From the NCBI GenBank assembly GCA_024276495.1, contig JAJRXC010000059.1:62001-126000 (forward strand): a stretch of DNA of 64,000 nt, written 5' to 3'. The stretch comes from Actinomycetes bacterium. Its GTDB lineage: Bacteria > Actinomycetota > Acidimicrobiia > Acidimicrobiales > Aldehydirespiratoraceae. Below the pieces are notes generated by a model that worked only from the letters and a program-made list of their open reading frames with translations, ran no database searches and was not told the DNA's origin. Both the position numbers and the translations under genes were made by a program. Position 1 is the first letter of the stretch, and each line of letters starts with the position of its first letter. Of this stretch, positions 2,351 to 35,895 are shown in pieces.

Positions 2351-2365
2351 GTGCCGCATCGGCGG

Positions 2366-4676: not shown

Positions 4677-4701
4677 GCGCGTCGCTCCCACCGACCCGGG
4701 A

Positions 4702-8169: not shown

Positions 8170-8175
8170 GCCATC

Positions 8176-8181: not shown

Positions 8182-8183
8182 CG

Positions 8184-8196: not shown

Positions 8197-8250
8197 GCGG
8201 ATGACCCCCATTCGTCAACGTGGATGATGATCTGCACCCGTCGCGGTCCC

Positions 8251-8256
8251 TACGGT
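8251..8256 (+). promoter_or_regulatory. -10 element TACGGT for the NarL-type kinase gene (leaderless)
   Basis: TACGGT ends six bases before ATG 8263. The intervening GGAGCC could also act as a weak ribosome site. Confidence 0.45.
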
Positions 8257-8262
8257 GGAGCC

Positions 8263-20798: not shown

Positions 20799-21833
20799 AT
20801 GAACAGGTGGCTCTGGCCGGTGTGCGCGCTCGTGGTCGCGTTGATCGCCGCATCGTGCGCCGCGCCCGAGCCGCCCGATGCCTGGGCCGTGCAGCGGCTC
20901 ACCCCGACCGAGGAGGTCGTGGCCGACCCCGGGGTCTGCGACGACGTGCAAACGCTCGCCCTCGGGTCCCGGGCCGACGACACCGACATCGGTCCGACGC
21001 TCGACGAGCTGGCCCGAATCAGCGCGATCGTCGGCGCCACTGCCGCCCTTCCCGACCTCAACGCGTTTCGGGACCTCGACGATGAGACGGATCTCTCCGA
21101 TCTCGAGTTGGGGGCCCGCCGTCACGACCTCCTGGCGGCCGCCGCTGAGATCATCGACGACGCGACCAGCCGTGTCTGTGAGATCCCCGCCTTCTCGGCC
21201 CTCTACGCCACCACGGGATTCGCCGACTGCTACTTCCCGATGGAGATCGCCGTCGGGGCGTACACCCTGGCCGACGATCCCGGCACCTGCTCCTCGGCGG
21301 GGCGGCCGACCTTCCTGCCGTGTTGGACCATCGACGGCAGTCACCTCCCCGTCGATTGTGTTTCCGGCGAGGTCGTGCAGGTCGTGAACGGCCGTTGGGA
21401 GGAGGCGGGCCCACCTCGGGCGGTCGTCATCGACCGTCCGGTCCCCGTGGCGCCCGACGAACCACCGCCGATCGTCCCGACCGGCACCGCGGCATGTGAC
21501 GGCCTGACCGGTCTCTTCCTCGCGGGCGACGCCCCCAACGGATCGGCCCCGGAATTCGATCGACTCGCCGCGGCCGCGGCCGGGATGGGCCCCGCCATCG
21601 AGGCACTCGTGATCCGCTTCATCGAGGCCAACGACATCGGACCCGACGAGTCGGCGCCGAGCTTCGCCGAGTTCGAGGCGCTGGTGGCCGAACTGGATCG
21701 GGCAACCGCCGATCTGTGCGGGTTCCCGCTCGTGAGCGCGTGGGCGTCGTTGACCGGGCCGCTCGATCAGCTCCCGTGCTGGACACGGACGGGCGGCTCG
21801 TATCCGGCCTTCATCCCGGCCGAGTGCGTCTGA
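20799..21833 (+). CDS. Secreted lipoprotein of unknown function with two related halves
   Basis: The protein has 344 residues. The signal peptide MNRWLWPVCALVVALIAASC ends in a lipobox (IAASC), so it is probably a membrane-anchored lipoprotein. I do not recognise the mature domain. Two halves resemble each other: both have a cysteine in a helical region (RVCEIPAFSALYA; DLCGFPLVSAWAS) followed by a LPCWT-x2-G-x2-xP-x-C block (LPCWTIDGSHLPVDC; LPCWTRTGGSYPAFIPAEC). The paired cysteines probably form disulfides. The 3' end overlaps the convergent GT2 gene by 23 bases. In-frame TTG and GTG codons just upstream are possible starts but less likely. Confidence 0.7.
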   Translation: MNRWLWPVCALVVALIAASCAAPEPPDAWAVQRLTPTEEVVADPGVCDDVQTLALGSRADDTDIGPTLDELARISAIVGATAALPDLNAFRDLDDETDLSDLELGARRHDLLAAAAEIIDDATSRVCEIPAFSALYATTGFADCYFPMEIAVGAYTLADDPGTCSSAGRPTFLPCWTIDGSHLPVDCVSGEVVQVVNGRWEEAGPPRAVVIDRPVPVAPDEPPPIVPTGTAACDGLTGLFLAGDAPNGSAPEFDRLAAAAAGMGPAIEALVIRFIEANDIGPDESAPSFAEFEALVAELDRATADLCGFPLVSAWASLTGPLDQLPCWTRTGGSYPAFIPAECV

Positions 21834-23298
21834 CGTCTTCCTGCAGGGCCGAGAAGAAACGTTCGGCGTCGGCGACGACATCGCTCGGGTGTCGCAGACC
21901 GTCGCGTCGGCCGATCTGTCGGTTTCGTTCGATGAAGTCGACCAACGATCGCCCGCCGAACAGCGGTTCGGGAACCTCGGCGAAGTCCTCGACGGTGAGC
22001 GTCGAGCGGTCGATGACCCGTTGCAGCAGGGCCGCCAGCGTCTCGCCGAACCAGCGGCCGTCGCGCTCGTCGCCACCTCCCATGAAACCGGCCTCCCGGC
22101 GACCGACGCTTCCCGCCACCTTCTCCGCCCGCGTCGGCGTGCGGTGGTAGACGGCGGGTGTGCAGTTCAGCAACAACGATTCGGTCCCGCAGGTCTCGAG
22201 CAGCATGCCCACCTGCGGGTACATCGTGAGCCCCAGGTAGGGCTTTCCCTCCGCCGAGAGGTAGCGGATGCGGCGCACGAGGAGCGTGGAGACGAATCCG
22301 AGACCGCTCAACACGCCCGTTTCCGACGCGAAGTCGATGACGCTGCGGTAGGAGCGTCGCTCTCCGGCCACGACACCATCGGGAACGTGCCCCGGGATGC
22401 GGTCGAGCTCCCGGCCCTGGTTGTCGATGCGGACCTTCTCGTAGAGCAGCACTTCGTGGTCCCCGGCGGCAGCGTCGGCGAGGATCGCGGCGAGCCCGTC
22501 GGGATGGAGGAGGTCGTCGTTGCCGAGGATCCAGAGGTATTCGCCACGGCAGGGGCCGCAGCTCTCGATCAGGTTCCGTTCGAGCCCCAGATTCTCGGGA
22601 TTGGCCCGGAACCCGATGAAGGAGTGGCGGCGCGCGAACGAGTGGGCGATCTCGGCGGCCCGATCGATGGTCGACCGGTCGTCGGTGATCCAGACCTCGA
22701 CCCGGTCGGTTCCGATGTCCTCGATCCCACGCACGATCGAGTCGAGGCATCCCTCGAGCTCGTCGGGGCGGTTGAAGGCCGGGACGGCAATGCTCACGAG
22801 CGGGTCCGTCACGTTCGCGTCGACCGGTCCCCGACTGCTCGGCGGCATCCGCCGGGCGACATCGTCGAGCTCTTGGCGGATCAGGTGCAAGCCCTCGCGG
22901 GTCAGCTCGCCGAACTGTTCGACGCGGCGCCACGTCCCCGACTCCAACTGTCCGAGCCGGCGGGTCGTCTCGGCCACGTCATCAGTGACCTCGTCGAGTC
23001 GGTCGGGTAGCCCCTCGAGCCCGGTCACTCGACGTTCGAGCATCGTCAACGCGTGTCGAAGCCGCCGCGACTCGGCGCGTTGACAAGCGAGCTGCTCACG
23101 GATGCGGCGCTCGGCTGCCTGATGGTGAGCGAACTTCGCGAGCAGCACGGCACACGACGCGACGACCGCCGCCACCCCCGCCCACCGGGCCCCGGCGCGG
23201 CCCGTGACCGCCCACGCGGCGGCAGCCGCGGCGACGAGCAGTGTCGCGCCGGTACGGGTGAGCGCGGTGCGGACCAGCCGCTCGGGATCTGCTGCCAT
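21811..23298 (-). CDS. Membrane-anchored GT2-like glycosyltransferase with coiled coil
   Basis: The protein has 495 residues. Two hydrophobic stretches (about 17-52) are followed by a charged helical region, probably a coiled coil (about 55-130). A family 2 glycosyltransferase domain then shows VSIAVPAFNRPDELEGCL, WITDDRS and GEYLWILGNDDLLHPDG; the last is the DXD-like nucleotide-sugar motif. It probably adds a sugar to a lipid-linked or surface glycan at the membrane. AAGGGGGTGA precedes ATG 23298. It stands alone at the edge of the glycan region. Confidence 0.78.
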   Translation of the reverse strand: MAADPERLVRTALTRTGATLLVAAAAAAWAVTGRAGARWAGVAAVVASCAVLLAKFAHHQAAERRIREQLACQRAESRRLRHALTMLERRVTGLEGLPDRLDEVTDDVAETTRRLGQLESGTWRRVEQFGELTREGLHLIRQELDDVARRMPPSSRGPVDANVTDPLVSIAVPAFNRPDELEGCLDSIVRGIEDIGTDRVEVWITDDRSTIDRAAEIAHSFARRHSFIGFRANPENLGLERNLIESCGPCRGEYLWILGNDDLLHPDGLAAILADAAAGDHEVLLYEKVRIDNQGRELDRIPGHVPDGVVAGERRSYRSVIDFASETGVLSGLGFVSTLLVRRIRYLSAEGKPYLGLTMYPQVGMLLETCGTESLLLNCTPAVYHRTPTRAEKVAGSVGRREAGFMGGGDERDGRWFGETLAALLQRVIDRSTLTVEDFAEVPEPLFGGRSLVDFIERNRQIGRRDGLRHPSDVVADAERFFSALQEDVRRTRPG

Positions 23299-23356: not shown

Positions 23357-24394
23357 TCAGTTCGCCAACGACTCCTCGATCGTGTCGGCGGCGATCTCGG
23401 CCGGGGACGGACCGTCCTCGAGGCGAAGATGATGGTGCAAGAACTCGGCGGCCGCCGCCCGGATCCCCTCGGCCGACCGGGCCGGTTCCTGCAGTTGCCG
23501 GGTGAGCTCTTCGGTGGATGCGGTCCGGGCGAACGCCCCCATGGGATCGGAGAAGGTCGGCTCCTTCTCGCCGTGCGGGTTGTGGTAGACGAACTCGACG
23601 CCGCGGATGAGCGCCTCGTAGCCGACGGTGCTGAACCGACCGACGAGATGGGTCGAAGCGGCCAACAGCTCGCCGATCGAACGATCGCTCGCCCGGTAGG
23701 GGAGGACGAGGCCGCGCTCGGCCGCGTGGCGCGACAGCACCCGGGGCATCCCGGCCACGCGACACGCGGTCATCACCGACGCCACCCAGGATCGCCGGTG
23801 TTCGGTGAGGACGCCATAGGTGAAGTTGCTGTTGATCGTCGCCATCGGGGCCGCGGGTCGAGCGCATGGCCCGTTCCACAGCGCCCGGAGGCGGGCGCTG
23901 CCCACGACGGTTCGGGCGGTTCCCGGGAGCCGATCGGCGCCGTACCGACCGAGACAGAACACGTGGTCGACATGGGTGTAGGCACCCCGGGATTGCCCGG
24001 TGTCGACGTCGCCGAAGTCCTGCACACCTTCGATCCAGGCGAAGGTCGGCACCTCCCGAGCACGTGACGACTCGACCAGCGCCTTCGGTGTCCCCCAGTC
24101 GTTCATCACCACGAGGGCCGACAGGTCGGCGACGAGCCCGTCGGCGGTGACCGGCGGGCCAAGCCGAAGCGGTGTCGCGCCGAGCAGCTCGCGGAAGCGC
24201 CGCATCCCGGGCCGGAAATGGTTCAACGGTTTCCTGGGCGGAACGGGGACGAGGATGTCCGCGGCGATCCCGCGGGCCCGCAGCTCGTCACGGAGCGGCA
24301 CGAGCTCGTCGAGGTGATACGCCGCCTGCACCACGAGACCGACGCGCCGACCGTCGCGTGGTGTCCGGTCGAGCCAGCCGTAGTCGACGCTCAC
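23357..24394 (-). CDS. Predicted GT-B-like glycosyl- or glycerophosphotransferase (TagF/Kdo-transferase style)
   Basis: The protein has 345 residues. The N-terminal half is Rossmann-like (RRVGLVVQAAYHLDELVPLRDEL, then LVVMNDWGTPKALVESS). The C-terminal half has ASTHLVGRFSTVGYEALIRGVEFVY, which resembles the nucleotide-binding end of CDP-glycerol glycerophosphotransferases and capsule Kdo transferases. The substrate is unknown. It is the last gene of a six-gene operon with a CMP-sugar-acid cytidylyltransferase, so a CMP-activated donor is plausible. The GTG start at 24394 overlaps the upstream stop (GTGA). Confidence 0.55.
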   Translation of the reverse strand: MSVDYGWLDRTPRDGRRVGLVVQAAYHLDELVPLRDELRARGIAADILVPVPPRKPLNHFRPGMRRFRELLGATPLRLGPPVTADGLVADLSALVVMNDWGTPKALVESSRAREVPTFAWIEGVQDFGDVDTGQSRGAYTHVDHVFCLGRYGADRLPGTARTVVGSARLRALWNGPCARPAAPMATINSNFTYGVLTEHRRSWVASVMTACRVAGMPRVLSRHAAERGLVLPYRASDRSIGELLAASTHLVGRFSTVGYEALIRGVEFVYHNPHGEKEPTFSDPMGAFARTASTEELTRQLQEPARSAEGIRAAAAEFLHHHLRLEDGPSPAEIAADTIEESLAN

Positions 24395-25245
24395 CCGGCC
24401 CACGCTCCGAGCAGCTGCGGGGGGCACCCGTCGACACCGACGTCGGCGAGGTAGAGGTCGCCGGCACCGTCGGGTCGTGACGCGAACTCGATGGCTGCGG
24501 TGGTGATCGCCAGTCGATCCAACCGGTCGCCGACGAAGGCCGGGCAGGTCACGTACGGGGTCGGAACCTCGACGATGTCGACACAATCACCGTCGACATA
24601 GCGACGAACGGTGCCCCCGCCCCACATCGCGACCCAGAGGCCACCCTCGACATCGATGCACATCCCGTCGGGGGCACCCAGCGACGGATCGATCTCGATG
24701 TGGGGTCGGCGGTTCGCGACCGTTCCGGTCGCCACGTCGTAGTCGAAGACATCGATTCGTCCGGTGGGTGTGTCGATCCAGTAGAGCCGCGTTCCGTCGG
24801 CGCTCCAGGCCAACCCGTTCGGGATCGTCACCCGGTCCACCAGCCGCGCCGCCGCGCCGGCGACCAGGGACCACAGCGTGCCCGCCTCGGCCCGAGCGGC
24901 ACCGGTCGTCATCGTGCCGCCGACGAACCGGCCGGCGGGGTCGGGCTTCCCGTCGTTCATTCGTAGGTCGTCGGCATCGCGGGGAAGCGCCGAGACGACC
25001 TCCCCGTCGGCCCGGCAGAGCCCTCGCGGTGTCGCCGCGAGCACATCACCCGACGCGGTCAACGCCACCGCACCGACCGGTTCGGGATGGGTTTGCAGCA
25101 CCCGGTCGGTGCCCTCCAAGTCGCAGGCGTGCACTTCGCCGCGAAGAATGTCGACCCACAGGATCTCCCAGTGTCGGGCGTGCCAGGTCGGCCCTTCACC
25201 CAGCTCTGCGCCGACCTCGGCCAACCGTGACGCGACCCGCACCAT
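24391..25245 (-). CDS. SMP-30/gluconolactonase/LRE-family sugar lactonase
   Basis: The protein has 284 residues and is a six-bladed propeller. Metal ligands are in place: GEGPTWH (Glu), NDGK (Asn), PNGLAWSADGTRLYWIDTPTG (Asn) and GAPDGMCIDVEGGLWVA (Asp). Family members hydrolyse aldonolactones to aldonic acids. The start abuts the SDR stop directly, and the stop overlaps the next gene. Together with the SDR this suggests sugar to sugar lactone to sugar acid, feeding the cytidylyltransferase pathway. That is inference. Confidence 0.82.
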   Translation of the reverse strand: MVRVASRLAEVGAELGEGPTWHARHWEILWVDILRGEVHACDLEGTDRVLQTHPEPVGAVALTASGDVLAATPRGLCRADGEVVSALPRDADDLRMNDGKPDPAGRFVGGTMTTGAARAEAGTLWSLVAGAAARLVDRVTIPNGLAWSADGTRLYWIDTPTGRIDVFDYDVATGTVANRRPHIEIDPSLGAPDGMCIDVEGGLWVAMWGGGTVRRYVDGDCVDIVEVPTPYVTCPAFVGDRLDRLAITTAAIEFASRPDGAGDLYLADVGVDGCPPQLLGAWAG

Positions 25246-25989
25246 CTACTCGGTCCCGAGCCGGGTCGTCGCGCCGCCGTCGACCACCAGCATCTGTCCG
25301 GTCGTGTACGGCGAGAGGTCTCCATCGGCCAGGAACCGCACCGACGGGGCGATCTGCTCGGGCGTCGCGACGAAGCCGAGCGGGGTCCGGGCGGCGAGGT
25401 CGGCGAGGTTTCCGTCGGGCCCGTCGGGGTGGGGACGACGGTCGAGACCATCGCGCAACATGGGGGTGTCGACGGCTCCCGGGAGCAGCGAGTTGCACCG
25501 GATCCCGTCGGCGGCCAACTCGATCGCGGCCGAGCGGGTCAACGCGGCGAGCGCGCCCTTGGAGATCGCGTAGACCGCCACGTTCATCGACGTCGCGATC
25601 GCGTGCACCGAGCTGATGTTGACGACCGATCCCCGGACCGCGGCCAGGAGGGGCTGGGCGTCACGGATGCACTGGAACGCGCTGCGCACGTTGGTGTTGA
25701 TGACGACGTTCCAGTCGTCGTCGGTGGTCTCCGCGATCGGCTTGTTCACCTGAACGGCGGCGTTGTTGACGAGCGCATCGAGCGAACGAAGATCCGAGAG
25801 CCGTTCGAACAGGTCGGCAACCTCGCCGTCGCGCCCCACGTCGGCGAGCTCGAAGCGGTCGAGCTCCACATCGTCGTCGGGTTCCCGTCGGTCGACGCCG
25901 ATCACCGTCCACCCGGCACGACGGAAGTTCGAGGCGACGGCTCGACCGATGCCACCGCAGGCCCCCGTGACGACAACCGAGCGGCTCAC
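25246..25989 (-). CDS. Short-chain dehydrogenase/reductase (SDR)
   Basis: The protein has 247 residues. The cofactor motif is TGACGGIGRA (TGxxxGxG). D at DRREPDD favours NAD, and LVNNAAV follows. The catalytic Ser lies in VNISSVHA and the YxxxK motif is YAISK. The family oxidises or reduces a hydroxyl/keto group on sugars, among many substrates. It overlaps the upstream dehydrogenase gene by ATGA and abuts the lactonase gene, so it probably acts on a sugar intermediate of this operon. Confidence 0.85.
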   Translation of the reverse strand: MSRSVVVTGACGGIGRAVASNFRRAGWTVIGVDRREPDDDVELDRFELADVGRDGEVADLFERLSDLRSLDALVNNAAVQVNKPIAETTDDDWNVVINTNVRSAFQCIRDAQPLLAAVRGSVVNISSVHAIATSMNVAVYAISKGALAALTRSAAIELAADGIRCNSLLPGAVDTPMLRDGLDRRPHPDGPDGNLADLAARTPLGFVATPEQIAPSVRFLADGDLSPYTTGQMLVVDGGATTRLGTE

Positions 25990-26933
25990 GGCAGGTCGAT
26001 CTCGACACCGAGCGCACGGGCGAGGTTCTCGATCGCCCGCCGATGGACGCGCGCCGACGCCTCGAACGTGTTCGAGGCGTTGTGACTCCCGAAGATCACG
26101 GTGTCGATCCCGCGAATCGGGTTGTCCGGCGCCGGCGGTTCCTCCTCGAGCACATCGAGAGCGGCCCCGGCGAGGTGACCGGCGCGCAACGCCGCGGCGA
26201 GGGCGACCGTGTCGACCACGTCGCCCCGGCCGGTGTTGACCAGATAGCCACCGGGCCGCATCGCCGCGAGCCGGGCGTCGTCGACCAGATGGTGCGTCTC
26301 GGGAGTCAGCGGGCAGTTCACCGACACGACGTCGCTCGTCGCCATGAGCTCGTCGATGTCGACGATGGCCGCCCCGTCGGCCTCCGCCGCCGCTCGGCTC
26401 TCCGGTGAGGGGTCAGAGCCGACGACGTCCATGCCGGCCACGACCGCGCGACGAACGACGGCCCGGCCGATCCCGCCGAGCCCGATGATGCCCATCCGGA
26501 GCCCACCGAGGGAACGACCGGCCGGTTTGGGCCAACCCCCGTCGCGCACCCCTTCGTGGATCACGTGCAGTTGGCGCAGCAACATGATCGTGTACGCCAT
26601 GGTGATGTCGGCGACCTCGTCGTCGAACGCCCCCGGCGTGTTCGTGACCACGGTGCCGCGGCTCGCCGCGTGGGGCCGATCGATCCCGTCGACCCCGATC
26701 CCCCACTTCGAGATGACGCGCAGATCCGCCAGGCGATCCTGGACCTCCGCGGTGAACTTGTCGTCGCCGGCCACCACACCGACACAACCGTCGAGGGCGG
26801 TGACGAGCGCATCGCCTTCGAGATGCTGTCCGGGAATGTCGGGAACAACGACGTCGAATCCGGCCTGCTCGAGGGCCGGTCGCCACTGCTCGATGTCACG
26901 GATCAGCTGGATGCAGGTGACGGCGATCTTCAC
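25986..26933 (-). CDS. D-2-hydroxyacid dehydrogenase (phosphoglycerate dehydrogenase-like)
   Basis: The protein has 315 residues. The NAD fold reads GIIGLGGIGRAVVRRAV. The catalytic Arg lies in VNTGRGDVVD, the Glu in LDVLEEEPP and the His in GSHNASNT, so the active site is complete. It lacks the ACT domains of many SerA enzymes. It converts a 2-hydroxy acid to a 2-keto acid or the reverse. Position directly after the cytidylyltransferase (ATGA overlap) suggests it makes or resets the 2-keto-acid carbon of a sugar acid. Serine biosynthesis is less likely in this context. Confidence 0.82.
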   Translation of the reverse strand: MKIAVTCIQLIRDIEQWRPALEQAGFDVVVPDIPGQHLEGDALVTALDGCVGVVAGDDKFTAEVQDRLADLRVISKWGIGVDGIDRPHAASRGTVVTNTPGAFDDEVADITMAYTIMLLRQLHVIHEGVRDGGWPKPAGRSLGGLRMGIIGLGGIGRAVVRRAVVAGMDVVGSDPSPESRAAAEADGAAIVDIDELMATSDVVSVNCPLTPETHHLVDDARLAAMRPGGYLVNTGRGDVVDTVALAAALRAGHLAGAALDVLEEEPPAPDNPIRGIDTVIFGSHNASNTFEASARVHRRAIENLARALGVEIDLP

Positions 26934-27604
26934 AACAGTCCCTCTCGTTGAAGTCGATGCAGGGCTTCGGCCAGCACGAAGTCGGGTTCTTCGTCGATGT
27001 CGGTCGCTTCGAGCGGGTCGATCTCAAACAGCAACGGCCGATCACCGAACCGGCGTCCCGCCGCGATCTGCTCTCGGGAAAAGACGTACATGCCCGAGTT
27101 CTCCTCGTAGAGCGGAGGGAGATCCTGGGTGCGCAACAAGACCGCGGGGTCGTGGTTGACCGGCGCGAACTCGGCGTCGTACAGGCGGGTCTGGAGCCGG
27201 GTCACCGAGAAGAGTGAATCGTGGGCGTCGAGCGCCGCCTCCAGCGCGGCGAGCCCGGCCGAGATCGTCGACGATCTCAGCAGCGGGCTTGTCGAGTGGG
27301 TCTGCAGATACCAGTCGCTGTCGACGACGGAGGCGTCGTGGCGCAGGATCTCCGTCATCGGGACGTCCCCACCGAGCAGGTGCTCAGGGCGATCGATCAC
27401 CTCCACGTCGGGAAAGTGCTCGGCACACTGGGCGGCAACCGTGGGGCTGTCGGTGTCGATCGCCACCCGGCGCACCTCGGGACATGCCGACAGGGTCCGC
27501 ACCATGTGGTGGAACAGGGGCGCGCCATCGAGGTCCCGGTAGTTCTTCCCGGGTACTCGTTCGCTGGAATGGCGGATGGGCATGAACGCCACGACGTCGA
27601 TCAC
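26930..27604 (-). CDS. CMP-sugar-acid synthetase, NeuA-like acylneuraminate cytidylyltransferase
   Basis: The protein has 224 residues. It should transfer CMP from CTP to a 2-keto sugar acid such as a sialic-acid-like nonulosonate or Kdo. Evidence is the P-loop MPIRHSSERVPGKN, the QTHSTSPLL substrate loop, YEENSGMYVF and the C-terminal DPLEATDIDEEPDF with the metal aspartates. The length matches short single-domain NeuA proteins. No NeuB/NeuC-type synthase or epimerase is in the window. The exact acid is therefore open, and the neighbouring dehydrogenases and lactonase hint at an unusual one. Confidence 0.82.
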   Translation of the reverse strand: MIDVVAFMPIRHSSERVPGKNYRDLDGAPLFHHMVRTLSACPEVRRVAIDTDSPTVAAQCAEHFPDVEVIDRPEHLLGGDVPMTEILRHDASVVDSDWYLQTHSTSPLLRSSTISAGLAALEAALDAHDSLFSVTRLQTRLYDAEFAPVNHDPAVLLRTQDLPPLYEENSGMYVFSREQIAAGRRFGDRPLLFEIDPLEATDIDEEPDFVLAEALHRLQREGLL

Positions 27605-27634
27605 TTCTGGTCCGTTCTCTCGGCGGTGAGGAGG

Positions 27635-28552
27635 TCAGTTCTGGTAGCGGTCGGCCTTCGGGGTGAAGCCCTTGGGATAGTAGAACCGCCGCTTCAGCGT
27701 GGTCGTCGGATCGCCATCCTGACGGAATCCCTTCCATGTCCCCCAGAACTGGGCCGCCCGGAAGCGGGGGATCGCGAGGAGGTTCGCCAACAGCTTCCGC
27801 CGGGGAACGGCGGCGAGATAGTCGCGCCCGCAGTTGGCGGCGAACAGGCCGATCGCCTCGAACGTTCCCATCTTCTGGTGACCGAAGATCCGCTTGTGGG
27901 CGATGGCCTCGCGGCGGTAGCGATTGACCGTCTGGGCGAAGTTCTCCTCGTGGACATGGGCGATCGATGCGTCGGCGACGTAGCAGATCCGGTGTCCTTC
28001 GTTGCGCGCGCGCCGCGCCCAATCCATGTCCTCGAGGCCGGTGAGGTATTCGTCGTAGGGAAGTGTCTTCCAGACCGATGCCCGCACGGCACAGTTCGCG
28101 TTGTTGCAGAACGGATGGTCCTGGTCGGGATCGGAGCGGTCGGGAAACCACCGCCGGAGGATCTCCATCTCGGAGAACGCGGTTCGGTCCTCGTCGCCGG
28201 TCTGTCGGCCGTAGACCAACGCGACGTCGTCGTGTTCCTCGAACGGGGCGATCAGCCGCTCCAGCCAGAACTCATCGATCGGGAACACGTGGGCGCTCAC
28301 GAACACGAGGATGTCACCGCTCGCGGCCGCGCAGCCGACGTTGAGAGCCCGGCCGAACGAGAACTCCTCCGCCGCGATGTGCACGATCGACGCACCGGCG
28401 GCCCGGCTGATCGCGACGGTGTCGTCGGTCGAACCGGAATCGACGAGGATGACCTCGTCGGCGGGCCGCGTCTGGCGGGCCAACCCCTCGTAGAGGGCCG
28501 GCAGGTCCGCCGCTTCGTTGAGCGCACGGATGACGATCGAGACCCGGGACAC
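27635..28552 (-). CDS. Family 2 glycosyltransferase
   Basis: The protein has 305 residues from GTG 28552. The GT-A fold shows VSIVIRALNEAADLPALYEGL, VDSGSTDDTV and ILVFVSAHVFP at the DXD position, followed by NCAVRASVW and EYLTGLEDMDWARRARNEG, where ED is the usual catalytic base region. It resembles rhamnosyltransferase-type GT2 enzymes of O-antigen and capsule loci. It is first in the operon that continues to 23357, with 30 bases before the cytidylyltransferase. Upstream extension to 28795 would run across the divergent promoter and is not supported. Confidence 0.85.
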   Translation of the reverse strand: MSRVSIVIRALNEAADLPALYEGLARQTRPADEVILVDSGSTDDTVAISRAAGASIVHIAAEEFSFGRALNVGCAAASGDILVFVSAHVFPIDEFWLERLIAPFEEHDDVALVYGRQTGDEDRTAFSEMEILRRWFPDRSDPDQDHPFCNNANCAVRASVWKTLPYDEYLTGLEDMDWARRARNEGHRICYVADASIAHVHEENFAQTVNRYRREAIAHKRIFGHQKMGTFEAIGLFAANCGRDYLAAVPRRKLLANLLAIPRFRAAQFWGTWKGFRQDGDPTTTLKRRFYYPKGFTPKADRYQN

Positions 28553-28560
28553 CGCCGCGG

Positions 28561-28566
28561 AGCCTA
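28561..28566 (-). promoter_or_regulatory. -10 element TAGGCT for the GT2/cytidylyltransferase operon
   Basis: TAGGCT lies eight bases before GTG 28552, so the leader is zero to two bases. It is back to back with the divergent TAGCAT element. Confidence 0.4.
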
Positions 28567-28585
28567 CCGGCCCCACGCCGCTCGG

Positions 28586-28591
28586 TAGCAT
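28586..28591 (+). promoter_or_regulatory. -10 element TAGCAT for the divergent GT2 gene
   Basis: TAGCAT ends seven bases before ATG 28599. It overlaps an alternative ATG at 28590, which argues that 28599 is the real start. Confidence 0.4.
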
Positions 28592-28598
28592 GCTCGCC

Positions 28599-29453
28599 AT
28601 GGTCGCCGTCTCCGTCGTCGTGTTGACGATGGGCGAACGGGCGGCCGAGCTCGCGTGCGCCGTCGACTCGGCCCGGCAACAAGTCGGCGTCGACACCGAG
28701 ATCATCATGGTGGTCAACGGCGGCGACCCGGACCGTTCGCTCGCCGACACGGTCGTGGAACCGGGTGAGAACCTCGGAATCCCCGGCGGCCGCAACGCGG
28801 GCGCCGCGGTCGCGACCCACGACCTGGTGGCCTTTCTCGACGACGACGGCCGCTATGTCGGCGACGACCTTCTGGCCCGGGCCGGTGAGGCGTTCTCGGC
28901 CGACCAACGGCTCGGCGCCATCGGGCTTCGGATCGTCGATGAGCACGGGGAGACGGCCCGCCGTCATCTTCCGGGGCTACGGGCCCGAGCCGAGCGATCA
29001 GGACCGGCGACGTCGTTTCCCGGTGGGGGGGTCATCGTGCGCCGCGCCGCGTTCGACGAGGTCGGCGGTCTCTGTGCCCCGTTCTTCTACGGACTCGAGG
29101 AGACCGACCTGGCATGGCGGCTCATCGACCGCGACTGGTCGATCCGCTACGACGCCGAGCTCGTGATGCGCCACCCACGAACCGACCCGGTGCGCCACCC
29201 GTCGTTCTTCACACACACCGCACGGAACCGGGTCTGGCTCGCACACCGGGCCCTTCCCGCCCCGCTCGCCGCGGCCTATGTGGCGAACTGGACGCTTGTG
29301 ACCTGCGTACGCAACTGGCGCGACCCCGCCGCGATCCGCGCCCACTTCGCCGGTCTTCGCGACGGCCGCCGCGACCGGGTCGGACCTCGCCGACCGATCG
29401 GCTGGCGCACGGTGTGCACACTCACCCGACTCGGGCGACCACCGATCATCTGA
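28599..29453 (+). CDS. Family 2 glycosyltransferase, rhamnosyltransferase-like
   Basis: The protein has 284 residues. VAVSVVVLTMGERAAEL opens the GT-A fold. NLGIPGGRNAGAAV, LVAFLDDDGRYVGDD (DXD) and FPGGGVIVRRAAFDEVGGLCAPFFYGLEETDLAWRL follow, as in WbbL-type rhamnosyltransferases. The C-terminal 70 residues are basic with an amphipathic stretch that may contact the membrane. It stands alone on the plus strand between two minus-strand glycan operons. Confidence 0.85.
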   Translation: MVAVSVVVLTMGERAAELACAVDSARQQVGVDTEIIMVVNGGDPDRSLADTVVEPGENLGIPGGRNAGAAVATHDLVAFLDDDGRYVGDDLLARAGEAFSADQRLGAIGLRIVDEHGETARRHLPGLRARAERSGPATSFPGGGVIVRRAAFDEVGGLCAPFFYGLEETDLAWRLIDRDWSIRYDAELVMRHPRTDPVRHPSFFTHTARNRVWLAHRALPAPLAAAYVANWTLVTCVRNWRDPAAIRAHFAGLRDGRRDRVGPRRPIGWRTVCTLTRLGRPPII

Positions 29454-29462: not shown

Positions 29463-30557
29463 TCAGAGCTCAGCGTTGAATCCCCGCTGGGCACCAAGCC
29501 AGTCTGCGGCCTCCCGCAGCTCTTCCGCGTCCGCTCTCGGAGCTGCGCGCTCTTCGACGAGACGTGAGAAGCCATCGGCTGACGCCCGTATCCGGGCAAC
29601 GAGCCGTCTGCCTCCGGCCGTGCCGCGAGTCCGGCGGATCGCGAGCGCGGTTGCGGTCGCTGCCGCCGCCTCCGGCGGAGTCAGACGGACGACCACCGGA
29701 TCAAGTTCCGCCAAGACCTCTCGAGCTTCGCCGACTCTGTTCTCGGCGAACGCGACCGCTGCAGCGAGACCGGCCCTGCTCACGGCCGCGGAGCTGAATC
29801 GATAGGTCGAGTCCGTCGCCGACAGGACCCCTCCTGGGGATCCCGGCATGGCACGATCAAAGGACGAGAACGCGTGTTGATTCGCTCGAAAGTGACCCGC
29901 CAGGTCCCGCCGCGTCATGGAGCCTGCCCGCCGGCGATACGCGACACACAATGTGGGTTGATACACGGTTCGGCCCCGAAGCCGCAGCCACCATCGCCAG
30001 AATTCTGCGTCCTCGGCCGTTTGGACGCTCTCGTCGAATCCTCCGATTCGGGCCACGAGATCACGACGGAGAACCGGTGCGCTCGCGATGAAGGGCACGG
30101 CGCGATCAGCCGACGCCATCCACACGTCCGGTCGCGTAGCCGCCCGCTTCGGCACGGGAAACCGTGGAAACCACTCCGGCACAGAAAGCCAATCGCCATA
30201 GCAGCCGATGACGTCGTCCTCGCCACGAGTCAACCGCTCGACCCGAGCTCGGAGCGCACCCGGGAACAAGAAGTCATCGCCGTCGAGAAAAGTGATCAGA
30301 GAAGCGCCGGCCTGCTGAAGTCCGGAGTTGCGAGCGCCCGCAAGGCCACGCGGCTCGTCGTGACGGATCAACCGGAACCGGTCATCGCGGCGGGTCAGAC
30401 GCTCCGCGATCGCGGTCGTCGCGTCGACTGAGCCGTCGTCGACGATCACGCACTCGAAGTCGACTCCTCGCTGTGATCGGATGCTGCGAAGGCACGCAGG
30501 GAGATGTTTCGCCTCGTCACGGGCGGCAACCACGACAGCGACGACCGGTCGGGTCAT
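29463..30557 (-). CDS. Family 2 glycosyltransferase
   Basis: The protein has 364 residues. VAVVVAARDEAKHLPACLRSI, CVIVDDGSVDATT, GLAGARNSGLQQAGASLITFLDGDDFLFP (DXD) and QTAEDAEFWRWWLR define a GT2 domain in residues 1-220. The remaining 140 residues are helical and not recognised. Its start overlaps the stop of the upstream GT2-DUF115 gene (ATGA), so it is the last gene of the exporter operon. Confidence 0.82.
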   Translation of the reverse strand: MTRPVVAVVVAARDEAKHLPACLRSIRSQRGVDFECVIVDDGSVDATTAIAERLTRRDDRFRLIRHDEPRGLAGARNSGLQQAGASLITFLDGDDFLFPGALRARVERLTRGEDDVIGCYGDWLSVPEWFPRFPVPKRAATRPDVWMASADRAVPFIASAPVLRRDLVARIGGFDESVQTAEDAEFWRWWLRLRGRTVYQPTLCVAYRRRAGSMTRRDLAGHFRANQHAFSSFDRAMPGSPGGVLSATDSTYRFSSAAVSRAGLAAAVAFAENRVGEAREVLAELDPVVVRLTPPEAAAATATALAIRRTRGTAGGRRLVARIRASADGFSRLVEERAAPRADAEELREAADWLGAQRGFNAEL

Positions 30558-33196
30558 GTCGATCGAACGTTCACCGCGTCGAGAAGATCCATCCTTCGGA
30601 AGACATCGAGGTTTCCGCCGATCGTGGAGTTCACGATCTCCCGTCCGGCGGCCTCGAACATCTCACCCGCGAGCCGGTAGTTGACCAGGACACGATCGAG
30701 CTTCGGGTCCTTCCAGCTCTTTCCCTTGCCGAAGTAGTCGGGGTGGAAGTGGTTGACATCGTCGCTTCGCGATGTGATGAGATCGCCCTTGCGCTCCACA
30801 TCGTCCGGGATCGTGTAGCTGAAGTCCATGCCGACGAGCACGACCCGCGAGAACCCCATCCAGAACGCGAGCTGGAGGTTGATGATGGTGACCGACTGGC
30901 CACAAAAGAGACGTTGCCCGGCATCGACCGAGAACCGGGGATGGCAGACGGTCCCGGTGTCACGGCCATAGAAGCCGCCGTTCATTCGAAAGAACCCTAT
31001 CCGGTCCGTGACCTCGTCATCGGAGAACGCACCGCGATAGTCGGTCGGGAAGAGCTTGAACTCGGTCTCGAAGTCTTTGATCGCCTGGGTGTTCTCGCGA
31101 AACACCGACGTGTCCTCGACGACGTAGTAGGTGATCGGATCCGGGAACCGCTCTGCCGCGTAGAAGATGCCGTTGACCGCGAACGTCGGCACACCACCGA
31201 GCTTCTCCAGTGGCGTCTCGTTCAAGGAAGGCCCGTTGCCCACGACGACAACCGTCTCCCCGAGATGCCGATTCTTCAAGGACGCGATCAATTCCCGGCT
31301 GGCCGGATCAATCGACCCCTCTTCTTTCGGCAGGAGGCGGCCGTAGTTGGTCTGGAGGCTCTTCACCGGATACGAGATTCCCGCCGAGTCCGGCACGTCT
31401 CCCGGTCCGACCACACGATCGGTCGCGAACTGCGATCGCTCGTTGCATTCGAGTTCGAGCGCACGACCACTCGCTTCGAGTTCGATGACCGGACAGGCCA
31501 GCTGCTCGACGAGCTCCCTCGTCACCGGCCCGATCGGCCGGCGGACGACCACCGACCCGACACCGATGCGACCGAACGCGACATGGTTGAAGGGGTGAAC
31601 CGCGACGCCGCGACGCTGCCACTCATCCGCGGCGCCCTCGTCGCCCTTCACGACATCGAGGTCCACGGCCGCGATTCTCCGTCCTCGCGCCCTTCCCTCC
31701 TCGACCAGTTGCTCGTAGGCGGCCACGTCGGCTGCCGTCTCGGCAACGAACAAGAGGTCGACTTCGTCTTCGTGCACCGACACGTCGACACCCATCGCGT
31801 CGCCACCAGGTTGCGCCGCCATGTCGACGGCGAGGGCAACGAGCCTCCGTTCGATGCCTCGCCCGATGGCGGCAATCCTCTCCCGATCGGTCTCGTCCAC
31901 GCGTGACGAGGAGATGCCGAGACCCAATCCCCGGTGCAGACCGGCTCGGGCTGCCTTGGCGAAGTCGACGCGCTCTCCCTGGGCTCGGGTGATCGGCTCG
32001 AGGAACTCGGCGAAGGAAGGATGGTCGAACGCGTGGGAGTCTCCCGATGACGCGAGATGTATCCCTGCGTAGGTCGCCGCTCGGGCGACGGCCCGCTCAC
32101 CTCGGGCGAGCACGGCCAGGGGTGCCGCTGCGTTCGGGTCGACGACGAAGTCCGGTGACGTTCTCGCCCAGCGATCGGCACGGTCCAGGAGGCGGCGCGC
32201 CTCGGCGAGATGGCCGCTCGGATCGGCGCGCACCATGCTGGCGCGACGCTGGCGGTAGACGCCGGCGACCCCGCCTGCGGGAACGAAGATGTAGCCGTGT
32301 CGAAGAATCCGTTGCCACAGATCCCAGTCTTCTGCGCCACGTCGCATTCGTTCGTCGAACCCGCCCATGGACCGGACGACTTCGGTTCGCAGGACCGGCC
32401 CGTGGGCATTGAACGGACACTCCCCTTGCGATGACGCGAAGTCGACCACCAGGCTGGACCCCACCAACCGCAGCCGCTCCGCCGCCTCGGGGGTCGTCTC
32501 CTCGGGAACCTGCGGAGTGATGGCCCATGACCCCACAACGTGGCGTTCGCCCCACCGGTTCTCGAGCGCACGAACCCGGCGCTCCAGAGACTGGGGAACG
32601 AGCATGTCATCGGCGTCCAGAAACGTCACGATCGGTTCGATCGCCTCTCGAAGCCCAGTGTTGCGTGCCGCTGACAGGCCCCCGTTCTTTCCGTGCCGGA
32701 GGAGTCTGAAACGAGAATCGAGACGTTCGAAGGAGGCGACGATGGCCGAGGTGTCGTCACAAGAAGCGTCGTCGACGACATAGCAACGCCAGTTGGCGTA
32801 TGTCTGGCGTCGCACAGAATCCAGGCAGGCTCCGAGCCAGTCGGCGGCATCGAACGCAGGCACCACGATGGCGATCGCCATCGTGGCGGACTGCTCATCC
32901 ACCTTCGGCGTCTTGTCGACACTCAGCGATTCGAGTCCGTCGAGAGCCATGCTCACTCGCTGCAATGTCTCCCGGCCGAGGTTGGCACGAGCCCGGCGGC
33001 CCCGCACCGTCCGTCGGATTCGCGAGAACCGACGTCGAATCGAGGCCAACGCCGGCACTCGAGCCGATGTCGTCCACCACAGTCGTCGCGAGCGATAGGC
33101 GAGCCCGTGGCGGACCCGGTGCGCCGTCACGACGAGCCCGTCACGGCGCACCATGACCCATACGCGTCTCGGCCATGACCTCACACCAGATGCCAC
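30554..33196 (-). CDS. Fusion of a family 2 glycosyltransferase and a DUF115/Maf-like CMP-sugar transferase domain
   Basis: The protein has 880 residues. A basic N-terminal tail (1-100) is followed by a GT2 domain (about 107-330; VVPAF 111-115, VDDAS 141-145, DAD 194-196). A middle region of unknown fold spans about 330-640. The C-terminal domain (about 639-880) has VVVVGNGPSLNETP (GNGPSL at 653-658), FAVNGIFYAAERFPDPITYYV, MGFSRVVLVGMDFSY and NHFHPDYFG (815-823). This matches the DUF115 (MptE-like/Maf) family and resembles Cst-II sialyltransferases, which use CMP-activated nonulosonic acids. Two transferase activities in one chain suggest consecutive sugar additions. GTG 33196 follows a GGGGATC site. 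Confidence 0.72.
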   Translation of the reverse strand: MASGVRSWPRRVWVMVRRDGLVVTAHRVRHGLAYRSRRLWWTTSARVPALASIRRRFSRIRRTVRGRRARANLGRETLQRVSMALDGLESLSVDKTPKVDEQSATMAIAIVVPAFDAADWLGACLDSVRRQTYANWRCYVVDDASCDDTSAIVASFERLDSRFRLLRHGKNGGLSAARNTGLREAIEPIVTFLDADDMLVPQSLERRVRALENRWGERHVVGSWAITPQVPEETTPEAAERLRLVGSSLVVDFASSQGECPFNAHGPVLRTEVVRSMGGFDERMRRGAEDWDLWQRILRHGYIFVPAGGVAGVYRQRRASMVRADPSGHLAEARRLLDRADRWARTSPDFVVDPNAAAPLAVLARGERAVARAATYAGIHLASSGDSHAFDHPSFAEFLEPITRAQGERVDFAKAARAGLHRGLGLGISSSRVDETDRERIAAIGRGIERRLVALAVDMAAQPGGDAMGVDVSVHEDEVDLLFVAETAADVAAYEQLVEEGRARGRRIAAVDLDVVKGDEGAADEWQRRGVAVHPFNHVAFGRIGVGSVVVRRPIGPVTRELVEQLACPVIELEASGRALELECNERSQFATDRVVGPGDVPDSAGISYPVKSLQTNYGRLLPKEEGSIDPASRELIASLKNRHLGETVVVVGNGPSLNETPLEKLGGVPTFAVNGIFYAAERFPDPITYYVVEDTSVFRENTQAIKDFETEFKLFPTDYRGAFSDDEVTDRIGFFRMNGGFYGRDTGTVCHPRFSVDAGQRLFCGQSVTIINLQLAFWMGFSRVVLVGMDFSYTIPDDVERKGDLITSRSDDVNHFHPDYFGKGKSWKDPKLDRVLVNYRLAGEMFEAAGREIVNSTIGGNLDVFRRMDLLDAVNVRST

Positions 33197-33253: not shown

Positions 33254-35056
33254 TCATCGCATCTGAGGAACGACAAAGGCGAACAAGGCGGCAGCATATT
33301 CGAGATCCGACTCTCGTACGGACTCCGGAGCCCGTGGCGGTCGCTCCAGATACGCGGCGGCGGCCGCGTCCATCCGCTCGGCAATCCTGCGGTTCGCGTC
33401 GGCGAAGTGGCGCATCAAGCTCGATGCCTCCGCCTCCGTCATCGGAAGTTCGTCCGATGACCGCCGGGCGAGTACGGTCAGCGCGACCCGCACTGCTCGG
33501 AGATCGAGTGCCCCGCTTCGGCGCATCTCGCGCCCGAGACGCCGCACGTAGTCGAAGGTGTGAAGATCCACCCCGGGAAGCTGGTCGAGAAGCAGAGAGC
33601 GTTCCGTCAACGGGATCTTGACGTCGAGGAGATCGAAAACATGATCGGCAGCGGTCGGGGCATCGAGGGAGTCGGGGAACTGCCGAAGCTCGACCTCGTC
33701 GACCATCTCGGCTCCGGCCCACACGTCGTGGACGACCGAGAGGTCATAGCCCGGCTCGTCGAAGAACCTCTCGATCGGAAGGTCGGTCAGATCACCGGAA
33801 CGAAGTCGCTCGATCAGCCGCTGGGCCGCGCGCTCGTCCTGACGCCGCACGATCAGAACCGGGGTCAACGCCTCGAACCCCGCGCGCTCGAGAAGTTGGC
33901 ACAGCTCACCGACACCTTCTTCGTCGAGATACGACGCCGCGTGCTGGGTCGAGGCCACCGCGTTTCCCTGCGTCGGGGCCGCCGCGACGAACCGGTCGGC
34001 GAATGTGGCCCGCCAATCTTCCCAATCCTCCGGCTCGATGCCGACGAGACCGCACGCCTGTCGTGAGGCGTACGCCACGAGCGGGTACTGGTTCACCTTC
34101 CCGGCAACGGTCGGATACCAGTAGCCGGCATCTCGAAGGTCTGCCCGGGCGTCGGCGAGAGTCTGTTGAACACCCTGCGTGCCCGCCATCGACACACCGA
34201 TGTGCAGGATGAACCGACGAGGGCCGCGAACCTTTGCGACCGACTCCCGGTCAGGGAGGACCTCAGCCGGCGCGGCCGTGGCAGTCAGGTTCGCCGAACG
34301 CCCCCTTTCGGTCTCCCTCCGAGTCTCATCCTCGACGACGTTTTGCTGGTACGCGGCGATGACATCTTCGGTCGGGCCGTCGGCACGGATGAGACCCGAG
34401 TCGATCCAGATCACGCGATCACAACTCGCGGCGACCTCTTCCATGTTGTGCGAGACGAGGGCAACTGTCCCGGCGTTGCGTCGGATCTCATCGATCCGCT
34501 GGGCCGACCGCCGGCTGAATGCGGCATCTCCCACCGCCAATGCCTCGTCGACCAACAAGATGTCGGGAATCGATGCCGTCGCGATGGAGAACGCGAGCCG
34601 TGCCCTCATCCCCGAGGAGTACGACGAGAGCGGGAGATCGATGAAATCGCGGAGCTCGGCAAACTCGATGATGGACTCCGTCTGCGCTCGCACCTCATCG
34701 ACGGTCAGGCCCAGGGCCAGGCCTCCCAGTTCGATGTTGCGCCTCCCCGAAAGTGTGCCCTGGAGGGCGGCACCGACACCGAGAAGCGTCGGCCGCTTCT
34801 GTACCCGGATCAGACCCGACCGGAGCGGTTGCAGCCCGGTGAGCGCGTTGAGCAGGGTCGACTTCCCCGAGCCGTTCCGGCCCACGATGCCGACAGACTC
34901 CCCTTCGTGAAGAGTGAAGCTGACCCCGCGCAACGCGTGAATCTCGCGGCGTCGACGCAGCATCCGAGGGCGATCCCGGCGGCGTATGTCCTCGAAAACG
35001 CGATAGACGACGTGGGCATCTTCGACGACGACCGATCGTGGACCGAGGTCGCTCAC
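33254..35056 (-). CDS. Polysaccharide ABC exporter ATPase (Wzt/TagH type) fused to a sulfotransferase-like domain
   Basis: The protein has 600 residues. Residues 1-240 are a Wzt/TagH ATPase: Walker A GRNGSGKST (59-67), signature SSYSSGM (144-150), Walker B DILLVDE (165-171) and H-loop H203. Residues about 280-600 start with RFILHIGVSMAGTQGVQQTL and continue with GYWYPTVAG, STQHAASYLDEE and LIVRRQDE. This order follows bacterial sulfotransferase-like proteins whose P-loop reads HIGxxKTGTTxxQ, here changed to MAGTQ. Wzt proteins often carry a C-terminal glycan-binding domain, so this domain may recognise or modify the glycan end. The GTG start overlaps the permease stop. Confidence 0.75.
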   Translation of the reverse strand: MSDLGPRSVVVEDAHVVYRVFEDIRRRDRPRMLRRRREIHALRGVSFTLHEGESVGIVGRNGSGKSTLLNALTGLQPLRSGLIRVQKRPTLLGVGAALQGTLSGRRNIELGGLALGLTVDEVRAQTESIIEFAELRDFIDLPLSSYSSGMRARLAFSIATASIPDILLVDEALAVGDAAFSRRSAQRIDEIRRNAGTVALVSHNMEEVAASCDRVIWIDSGLIRADGPTEDVIAAYQQNVVEDETRRETERGRSANLTATAAPAEVLPDRESVAKVRGPRRFILHIGVSMAGTQGVQQTLADARADLRDAGYWYPTVAGKVNQYPLVAYASRQACGLVGIEPEDWEDWRATFADRFVAAAPTQGNAVASTQHAASYLDEEGVGELCQLLERAGFEALTPVLIVRRQDERAAQRLIERLRSGDLTDLPIERFFDEPGYDLSVVHDVWAGAEMVDEVELRQFPDSLDAPTAADHVFDLLDVKIPLTERSLLLDQLPGVDLHTFDYVRRLGREMRRSGALDLRAVRVALTVLARRSSDELPMTEAEASSLMRHFADANRRIAERMDAAAAAYLERPPRAPESVRESDLEYAAALFAFVVPQMR

Positions 35057-35895
35057 GAACCGAACCTCGGCTCGGCGCGGCGGAACGTGACGAAGCCGAG
35101 CACCATGATGCCCACCGCCCACGCGAACATGCCGATCAGTTCGGGCCAGCCGGCATCCTCGCCCATCATCGACCAACGAGCGAGTGTCACCAGGTCGTAC
35201 ATCGGGTTGGCCGCGAAGAGCAGCCGAGTTCGCTCGCCGGTGATCCAACGGTCGACGCTGAAGATGACACCAGAGCCGTAGAGCAGGACTCGAAAGAGAT
35301 GAGGGAGCACCTGCGATGTGTCGCGGAGCCGATCACCGAGCTGGGAGGTGATCAACGCTGCCCCCGTGTTGAAGGTCGTCTGGACCATGAAGATCGGCAC
35401 GATCGCGAGCCAGCGAGCGTCTGGGGTCTCTCCGGTCAACAACAAGGTGACCACCAAGACGACCGTGGCCTGACCGAACGCGATCGTCTCCTTCACGACG
35501 ACAGCAACGGGAAGCAGGATCCTGGGGAACTGAAGCGATCGCACCAGACCGAGGTTGCGCGAGACGGCCGATGCCGCGTCCGTCGCGATCCTCTGCGTCA
35601 GTTGGTAGAAGAGAATGCCGATGACGAGGAATCCGAGGAAGTTGTCGACACCGCGGTTGACCTGGAGCAAACGTTCGAAGACCAGGTAGTAGATGGCGAC
35701 GAGAAGAGCCGGATTGAGGAGCAGCCACAGCTGACCGAGCGCGGCGTCGGAGGACTGGCGGTGCAGGTCACCCCGAGCCAGCGACAACGCGAAGGCCCGA
35801 CGCTGCCAGATGTCACGTAGATATTCGCCAACGGGCGGAGCCTGCCCGAGCACCCGCAGGCCATCGTCGGATTCCGGCCAGCGTGCTCTGCTCAC
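35053..35895 (-). CDS. Polysaccharide ABC exporter permease (Wzm/TagG type)
   Basis: The protein has 280 residues and is an ABC-2 permease with about six membrane helices (for example LLNPALLVAIYYLVFERLL, FLGFLVIGILFYQL, ATVVLVVTLLLTG). The amphipathic N-terminus and the LARGDLHRQSSDAALGQLW segment match exporters of O-antigens and teichoic acids. It moves lipid-linked glycan across the membrane with the ATPase encoded next. GTG 35895 lies seven bases behind TAGCGT. It is first in a four-gene operon (35895 to 29463). Confidence 0.88.
   Translation of the reverse strand: MSRARWPESDDGLRVLGQAPPVGEYLRDIWQRRAFALSLARGDLHRQSSDAALGQLWLLLNPALLVAIYYLVFERLLQVNRGVDNFLGFLVIGILFYQLTQRIATDAASAVSRNLGLVRSLQFPRILLPVAVVVKETIAFGQATVVLVVTLLLTGETPDARWLAIVPIFMVQTTFNTGAALITSQLGDRLRDTSQVLPHLFRVLLYGSGVIFSVDRWITGERTRLLFAANPMYDLVTLARWSMMGEDAGWPELIGMFAWAVGIMVLGFVTFRRAEPRFGS

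Follow-up and report, generated by a model that had tools for sequence, protein, structure and literature searches.

The 64,000-nucleotide stretch analysed here, which we call the window, comes from the draft genome of an actinobacterium of the family Aldehydirespiratoraceae (assembly GCA_024276495.1, contig JAJRXC010000059.1, positions 62,001 to 126,000). It carries a minus-strand operon of six genes, reaching from 28588 down to 23357, which encode a glycosyltransferase (GT) of family GT2, a NeuA-like cytidylyltransferase (CMPT), a D-2-hydroxyacid dehydrogenase (HADH), a short-chain dehydrogenase/reductase (SDR), an SMP-30/gluconolactonase and a protein of predicted GT-B fold (Table 1). To our knowledge the established sugars activated with cytidine monophosphate (CMP), namely sialic, legionaminic and pseudaminic acids and 3-deoxy-D-manno-octulosonic acid (Kdo), are all built by synthases that depend on phosphoenolpyruvate (PEP). 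The product of the gene set described here is probably another CMP-activated acid, different from the nonulosonates and from Kdo.

The operon

A first-pass annotation of this DNA, made from the sequence alone, had described six co-directional genes with four overlapping or abutting junctions, and both points hold. A 30-base gap separates GT2 from CMPT, four-base overlaps join CMPT to HADH and HADH to SDR, SDR abuts SMP-30 exactly, and SMP-30 overlaps the last gene by four bases, provided that the latter begins with the GTG at 24394 (the list of open reading frames, ORFs, has a longer frame from 24586). Three related genomes together hold four loci, at 77-86% identity, in which the order GT2-CMPT-HADH-SDR is preserved and both SMP-30 and the GT-B gene lie close by, although SMP-30 is on the opposite strand in 3 of the 4. 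The arrangement is therefore not due to chance.

Table 1. Genes and domains of the operon and of the surrounding region of the window
Feature	Position	Strand	Basis
GT2 glycosyltransferase, first operon gene	27635-28588	-	Glycos_transf_2 83.9 bits; start uncertain, overlaps divergent ORF 28518-29453
NeuA-like cytidylyltransferase (CMPT), changed acid-sugar contacts	26930-27604	-	CTP_transf_3 PF02348 92.2 bits; own clade; residues
D-2-hydroxyacid dehydrogenase (HADH), phosphoglycerate dehydrogenase-like, R236/E265/H284 kept	25986-26933	-	2-Hacid_dh_C PF02826 186.9 bits
SDR oxidoreductase	25246-25989	-	adh_short_C2 175.6 bits; TGxxxGxG and YxxxK visible in sequence
SMP-30/gluconolactonase	24391-25245	-	SGL PF08450 227.5 bits
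GT-B-fold protein, last operon gene	23357-24394	-	no Pfam match; predicted fold; homologues
Further GT2, downstream	21811-23298	-	Pfam
Divergent GT2	28518-29453	+	Pfam
Further GT2, upstream	29463-30557	-	Pfam
GT2 and CstII/Maf-like fusion protein, 880 aa, whole	30554-33196	-	Pfam
CstII/Maf-like domain, C-terminal in the fusion; candidate CMP-sugar transferase	30557-31369	-	PF01973 46.6 bits, cut-off 34.6
ABC ATPase, long C-terminal extension, probable glycan export	33254-35248	-	PF00005; start overlaps next gene
ABC-2 permease, probable glycan export	35053-35895	-	PF01061

Distribution of the gene set

A search of other genomes for the same gene set, which the first-pass annotation had proposed, finds its core conserved in relatives of the host and in distant phyla. 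Within the host's class, at a threshold of E<=1e-20, 13 of 296 genomes have the cytidylyltransferase, that of the host being one of the 13. The 93 loci considered below comprise 13 class loci and 80 from a scan of GTDB genomes, the best 80 of 307 confirmed relatives; these 80 are rich in Anaerolineae, so that the counts are not counts of independent events, and short contigs truncate some of the neighbourhoods. One locus (L028) has no cassette, its enzyme lying outside the clade described in the next section and its HADH grouping with SerA, and it is included in the counts. A HADH gene lies on the same strand and within 5.5 kb of CMPT in 78 of the 93 loci (77/92 without L028), directly downstream of it in 42/93, and together with an SDR or epimerase gene in 64/93. 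Of 84 HADH matches, 79 lie within this distance and on the strand of CMPT, a flattering figure, since these very loci were used to iterate the HADH profile and other HADH subfamilies are under-counted. NeuB is found within 5.5 kb of CMPT in 3/93 loci; four loci have it next to a different cytidylyltransferase, one that falls outside the clade.

Two types of set can be told apart. Type I, defined by HADH without an HpaI aldolase, accounts for 53 loci (52 without L028), and an SDR is near in 41 of them; a cyclase-family hydrolase occurs in 11/53 and SMP-30 in 5/53 (the count for SMP-30 over all loci is 5/93), never both, which gives a total of 16/53 with either. Type II has the HpaI aldolase (33/93 loci), together with HADH in 29, a HAD phosphatase in 27, an epimerase in 24 and a cyclase in 19; the Pfam matches of one such set (L074) are HpcH_HpaI, Cyclase, HAD_2 and Epimerase.

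The rows of the CMPT tree span 14 phyla, archaea and Patescibacteria among them, and a Methanosarcina genome (G316, locus L049) has the order GT2-cyclase-CMPT-HADH-SDR. Cultivated carriers of the set include Methanosarcina sp. 2.H.T.1A.6, Thalassovita gelatinovora, Thiocystis violacea DSM 207 and, with a type II set, Polaribacter glomeratus. Plasmids of the Rhodobacterales genera Thalassovita, Sulfitobacter and Gemmobacter carry GT2-CMPT-HADH along with PF01973-type proteins, the best of which on each plasmid is 48-51% identical to the domain found near the operon, and in all three a GT that is 41-42% identical to the operon GT2 is directly upstream of CMPT. On the Thalassovita and Sulfitobacter plasmids an SDR (30-31% identical to that of the operon) and an SMP-30 gene (33%) also lie within about 8 kb, the SDR of the Sulfitobacter plasmid being on the other strand. 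Both types of set are found on plasmids of Alphaproteobacteria (L121, L123, L131, L132), and for this reason the gene set can probably move between hosts. A 4.94-Mb E. coli record that is filed as a plasmid (L124) is, for its size, probably a chromosome. One Anaerolineae locus (L060) has, between CMPT and HADH, a 696-amino-acid ORF that has no Pfam match at E<=0.001, looks by eye like a membrane protein and has relatives in 8/93 loci.

Linkage of this kind could also arise if the operon were common to genes that serve separate ends, with HADH, SDR and SMP-30 modifying or recycling sugars unrelated to the CMP-sugar. SMP-30 does change strand and order in close relatives and is rare among the loci, and both the SDR and the HADH family have many and diverse members. 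The type I HADHs nevertheless form a group of their own: in a tree made with FastTree alone, 51 rows that include the operon HADH and nearly all type I HADHs fall together with a support of 0.999. The exceptions are few; besides the HADH of L028, the second HADH of L057 groups with SerA, the nearer of two HADHs in L068 groups with GhrB (the farther one with type I), and that of L107 groups with type II. With the same-strand linkage of HADH to CMPT and its company of SDR or epimerase genes, this makes separate ends improbable.

The cytidylyltransferase and its sugar site

The operon CMPT matches the CTP_transf_3 family far above the cut-off of 22.6 bits and falls far below the equivalog cut-offs for PseF (TIGR03584, 58.5 against 205.7 bits) and KdsB (TIGR00466, 24 against 155.2 bits). 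In a tree of 110 rows it forms one group with 95 others (99/89), although the bootstrap was unsettled, branches are long and the root is a midpoint root. This clade of 96 takes in the main enzyme of every examined locus but L028, and it leaves outside the NeuA proteins of V. cholerae and N. meningitidis, E. coli KdsB and several second copies. Also outside are the NeuB-adjacent enzymes of four Chloroflexi loci (L032, L037, L039, L063), the same four loci holding a cassette enzyme as well.

The motif RHSSERVPGKN and the metal aspartates that had been attributed to NeuA are present, but RHSSERVPGKN is no true P-loop; it is the motif by which proteins of this family bind the nucleotide near their N-terminus. 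When the 96 rows of the clade are aligned to N. meningitidis NeuA, the core residues Ser14, Lys20, Asn21, Asp202 and Asp204 are kept in 94-96 of them. Around the sugar the picture is different: Arg165 is replaced by Thr and Gln104 by His in 96/96 rows, Phe192 by Arg in 95/96, Phe193 is mostly Ile or Leu, and Lys142 aligns to a gap. Excerpts of a study of NeuA (PMC2901514) state that Arg165 forms a salt bridge with the carboxylate of the substrate and that its loss abolishes activity, that Phe192 and Phe193 hold the methyl of the N-acetyl group, that Gln104 is a sugar-binding residue and that Tyr179 touches the glyceryl chain. Because Arg165, Gln104 and Phe192 are replaced throughout the clade, the acid is probably bound differently from that of NeuA, in a manner that is alike in type I and type II sets and with part of the site in common. 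The conserved residues R140, N150, R185 and H151 (the last shared with N. meningitidis NeuA) could bind the carboxylate. Thus the proposal that this enzyme activates a new sugar acid gains from the distinct clade and the changed contacts, and loses from the retention of Asn175 (96/96) and Tyr179 (94/96).

Loss of the carboxylate arginine in every row might instead mean that the substrate of CMPT is no 2-keto acid but, for example, an aldonic or glyceric acid, with HADH working in the reducing direction; among solved proteins HADH is nearest to phosphoglycerate dehydrogenase (PGDH) and to glycerate dehydrogenase/glyoxylate reductases. The four residues just named could take over the binding of the carboxylate, the metal aspartates are unchanged, and the CstII/Maf-like domain discussed below fits a CMP-ulosonate donor, so that we regard this alternative as very improbable.

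The other enzymes and a candidate user of the CMP-sugar

The best solved relative of HADH is the PGDH 1wwk, and its residues R236, E265 and H284, which we take to be the catalytic Arg/Glu/His set, are common to SerA, GhrA and GhrB. The SDR is closest to glucose 1-dehydrogenase (3vtz) and SMP-30 to regucalcin, to which its GEGP, PNGL and PDGMCID segments align; the metal ligands Glu, Asn and Asp presumably lie within these segments. The last gene had been called TagF/Kdo-transferase-like, which is fair for the fold and only at that level: it has no Pfam match at E<=0.01, and at that threshold it does not match the TagF/TarL CDP-polyol transferase domain (PF04464, as we take it). Its AlphaFold2 (AF2) model, built from a 7-row alignment (mean predicted local distance difference test, pLDDT, 79.5), is GT-B-like by Foldseek, non-hydrolysing UDP-GlcNAc 2-epimerases being the best matches and glycosyltransferases the next; TarL is just reached by its profile, with E 0.00096. 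Homologues occur in 13/93 loci of both types, with conserved segments of the EGVQDF-, NFTYG- and YHNPHGE-type. We consider a transferase probable for this gene, an epimerase being the alternative that the model offers.

The likely CMP-sugar transferase was missed by the first-pass annotation, whose limits did not extend to it. It is a PF01973 domain at the C-terminus of a GT2 fusion protein beyond the start of the operon. A profile of 28 rows finds the CstII and CstI sialyltransferases as its best PDB matches (CstII at 2.9e-7). For the AF2 model (pLDDT 87.7), Maf (5mu5) is the only Foldseek match below E 0.001, and a second aligner gives Z scores of 14.1 for Maf, 12.5 for CstII and 11.8 for the pterin enzyme MptE; since MptE scores so close, the modelled fold alone is no proof that a CMP-sugar is used. 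The domain has a GNGPSL motif together with the GT42/Maf fold. Its invariant His207 stands in a nearby loop and is not paired by the profile alignment with His188 of CstII, which is the general base of that enzyme according to excerpts of PMC4202792. Relatives of the domain are present in 43/93 loci, within 5.5 kb in 29. Judged from these sequence and fold relationships, the domain likely uses a CMP-sugar.

Condensing enzymes in the host genome

The host assembly is a draft of 4.33 Mb in 111 contigs, 97.4% complete, and a profile search finds in it one CTP_transf_3 gene, that of the operon. Searched with PF03102, the draft has no NeuB match (the same search was positive in 9/14 controls), and neither PF00793 nor TIGR01362 finds KdsA. 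The lack of a NeuB-type condensing enzyme that had been noted for the operon is thus borne out for the host genome, and the check for neuB or kdsA elsewhere in that genome comes out negative with these three profiles. Two candidates were accordingly rated low: an ordinary NeuA served by a distant NeuB, in view of this search, the separate clade and the replaced contacts; and Kdo as the product, in view of the KdsA searches.

The host has one gene of the dihydrodipicolinate synthase (DHDPS) family. Another contig carries an operon in the order SDR-amidohydrolase-HADH-HpaI-HADH (L129, 5170-9782), close to a LacI regulator; with the same kinds of enzyme, it looks like a catabolic counterpart of the set. 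Among the HpaI genes of the host, the one closest to the cassette type shows 33-40% identity to it in the 12 best rows.

A proposed route and its alternatives

The route that we prefer, and that we regard as plausible although we hold it tentatively, is an oxidative one in which SDR, lactonase and HADH act before CMPT and no PEP-condensing synthase takes part. SDR would turn an aldose into a lactone by oxidation at C1, SMP-30 would open the lactone to an aldonic acid, HADH would oxidise C2 to give a 2-ulosonic acid, and CMPT would place CMP on the anomeric hydroxyl of that acid. The CstII/Maf-like domain, perhaps together with the GT-B gene, would then transfer the sugar to a surface glycan, which would be exported via the neighbouring ABC-2 transporter. 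What is read directly from the sequences is the gene families, the outcome of the host NeuB and KdsA searches, the clade and contacts of CMPT, the linkage of HADH across phyla and the CMP-sialyltransferase-like fold; we infer the substrate, in what order and direction the oxidations and the hydrolysis proceed, and the transferase that uses the product. The first-pass suggestion of a conversion by SDR, lactonase and HADH to a CMP-activated acid therefore stands as regards the conserved gene set and the host searches, whereas the order of steps is consistent with the data and no more, and a hydrolase accompanies under a third of the type I sets (16/53).

A number of observations weigh against this route. 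Neither hydrolase is found in 37/53 type I loci within the stretch examined, and NAD-dependent 2-hydroxyacid dehydrogenases usually favour reduction. The SDR and SMP-30 proteins of the plasmids are only 30-33% identical to those of the operon, and on the Thalassovita plasmid the pair adjoins kdsA and a separate Kdo cytidylyltransferase; the Kdo of Thalassovita, to judge from these genes, has its own activating enzyme, and it is not certain that the plasmid SDR and SMP-30 are members of the cassette. The second CMPT of L057 adjoins HADH yet falls outside the clade, and with Asn175 and Tyr179 part of the NeuA sugar site is, by sequence, conserved within it. The HpaI aldolase of 33/93 loci suggests a second way to a 2-keto acid and argues for a 3-deoxy acid at those loci; the host itself has three HpaI-family genes and one gene for 2-keto-3-deoxy-6-phosphogluconate (KDPG) aldolase. 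On an E. coli plasmid (L125; IncX1, IncY; 1-8911) a NeuB-family synthase and an inositol-monophosphatase family gene stand next to a gene that is annotated as hypothetical and encodes a cytidylyltransferase; this last enzyme branches just outside the clade and shares its His/Thr/Arg residues, which are therefore not exclusive to sets without NeuB.

NeuB itself is widespread among relatives. In more distant genomes, of which 48 were reached via 50 of the 80 loci, NeuB exceeds 200 bits in 35 of the 48 genomes with the enzyme, 9 have weak matches only and 4 have none; in class genomes there is a match in 8 of 12 (above 120 bits in 4 of the 8), and G205, of the same family as the host, has one of 198 bits on another contig. 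These NeuB-bearing relatives weaken any general claim of NeuB absence; four class genomes (G211, G169, G210, G128) and Methanosarcina show no PF03102 match. The weak PF03102 matches in relatives (26-58 bits) are probably 3-deoxy-D-arabino-heptulosonate 7-phosphate (DAHP) synthases, to judge from sub-cut-off TIGR01362 matches that fall on several of them.

Could CMPT then be an ordinary nonulosonate- or Kdo-activating enzyme, its synthase missing from a draft that is 97.4% complete or its sugar imported? The strong NeuB matches of relatives, the family membership, the conserved core and the retained Asn175 and Tyr179 would all be expected, but the carboxylate arginine and one N-acetyl contact are replaced in 95-96 of 96 rows, the PseF and KdsB scores are far under their cut-offs, the four class genomes named above lack NeuB matches as does the host, and NeuB is near in few loci and, in four, adjoins an out-of-clade cytidylyltransferase. 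We consider this quite improbable.

A better case can be made for a 3-deoxy-2-ulosonic acid formed by an HpaI- or KDPG-type aldolase encoded elsewhere, with HADH and SDR tailoring it or supplying the donor keto acid and CMPT activating it. The type II loci, most with HADH and a HAD phosphatase, and the aldolase genes of the host speak for it, as does the L125 enzyme, which has the same residues beside a NeuB-family synthase; the products of such synthases are 3-deoxy acids. Yet of the host HpaI genes it is the one closest to the cassette type that sits in the catabolic-looking operon, and some hosts of type I genes have few aldolase candidates. HpaI searches of 20 genomes gave matches at E<=0.001 in 15, of which 8 pass the cut-off. 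In Prochloron G310 and Oscillochloris G313 HpaI gives no match, NeuB no strong one and KdsA none above the cut-off, and each of the two genomes has one KDPG aldolase. Methanosarcina G316, of which the genome completeness is not stated, has no match to NeuB, KdsA or KDPG aldolase; it has one DHDPS-family gene and, as a point against the oxidative route, one HpaI match at the cut-off (25.0 bits, in a 502-amino-acid frame). We hold the aldolase explanation to be somewhat unlikely.

The oxidative route fits because Methanosarcina has a type I set without a recognised condensing enzyme, and from such sequence searches it seems that at least one host makes its acid without one. Our confidence, both in this route and in a novel acid, is tempered because Asn175 and Tyr179 are kept and a few of the counted loci are not clean cassettes. 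A broader view, conceivable and on balance doubtful, is that there is a third route to CMP-ulosonic acids without condensation of PEP or pyruvate, in which type II sets would proceed via hydroxypyruvate made by HADH and an aldol addition by HpaI, both types would feed CstII/Maf-like transferases in some 14 phyla including that of Methanosarcina, and an overlooked class of acidic surface sugars would result.

The surrounding locus

Further GT2 genes and an ABC-2 exporter surround the operon, and the region is therefore probably a surface glycan locus. The C-terminal extension of the ATP-binding cassette (ABC) ATPase, from near FILHIGVSMAGTQGVQQ, resembles by eye the nucleotide-binding motif of sulfotransferases; Pfam finds the ABC domain only.

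Comparison with known systems

No description of this gene set was found in the open-access literature (preprints being outside the scope), and surveys that use NeuB as a marker would miss it. If the proposal is right, genes annotated as acylneuraminate cytidylyltransferase beside "phosphoglycerate dehydrogenase" make a different acid and annotations would be corrected across phyla, a new CMP-sugar would become available for glycan engineering, and the chemistry could be tested in hosts that are in culture, Methanosarcina and Thalassovita among them.

With the NeuB/NeuA pathway the operon has in common the cytidylyltransferase family, its nucleotide motif and metal aspartates, Asn175 and Tyr179, and a CstII/Maf-like domain in the locus; it differs in the absence of a NeuB match in the host, in the replaced carboxylate Arg, Gln104 and Phe192, in the separate clade of its enzyme, and in having dehydrogenases and a lactonase-like gene instead. 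The CMP-Kdo pathway of KdsA and KdsB likewise activates a sugar acid with CMP, but the host has no KdsA match, the TIGR00466 score is far too low, and the Thalassovita plasmid holds both systems. Oxidative sugar catabolism offers the pairing of SDR and lactonase, and the host has its HADH and HpaI operon on another contig; unlike such pathways, the operon also has a cytidylyltransferase and glycosyltransferases, and a probable glycan exporter lies next to it. The GT42 enzymes CstI and CstII and the Maf proteins (PF01973) resemble the operon-region domain by the CstII profile match and by the Z scores for CstII and Maf, whereas that domain is fused to a GT2, the catalytic His of CstII has no confident counterpart in the alignment, and the fold is shared with MptE.

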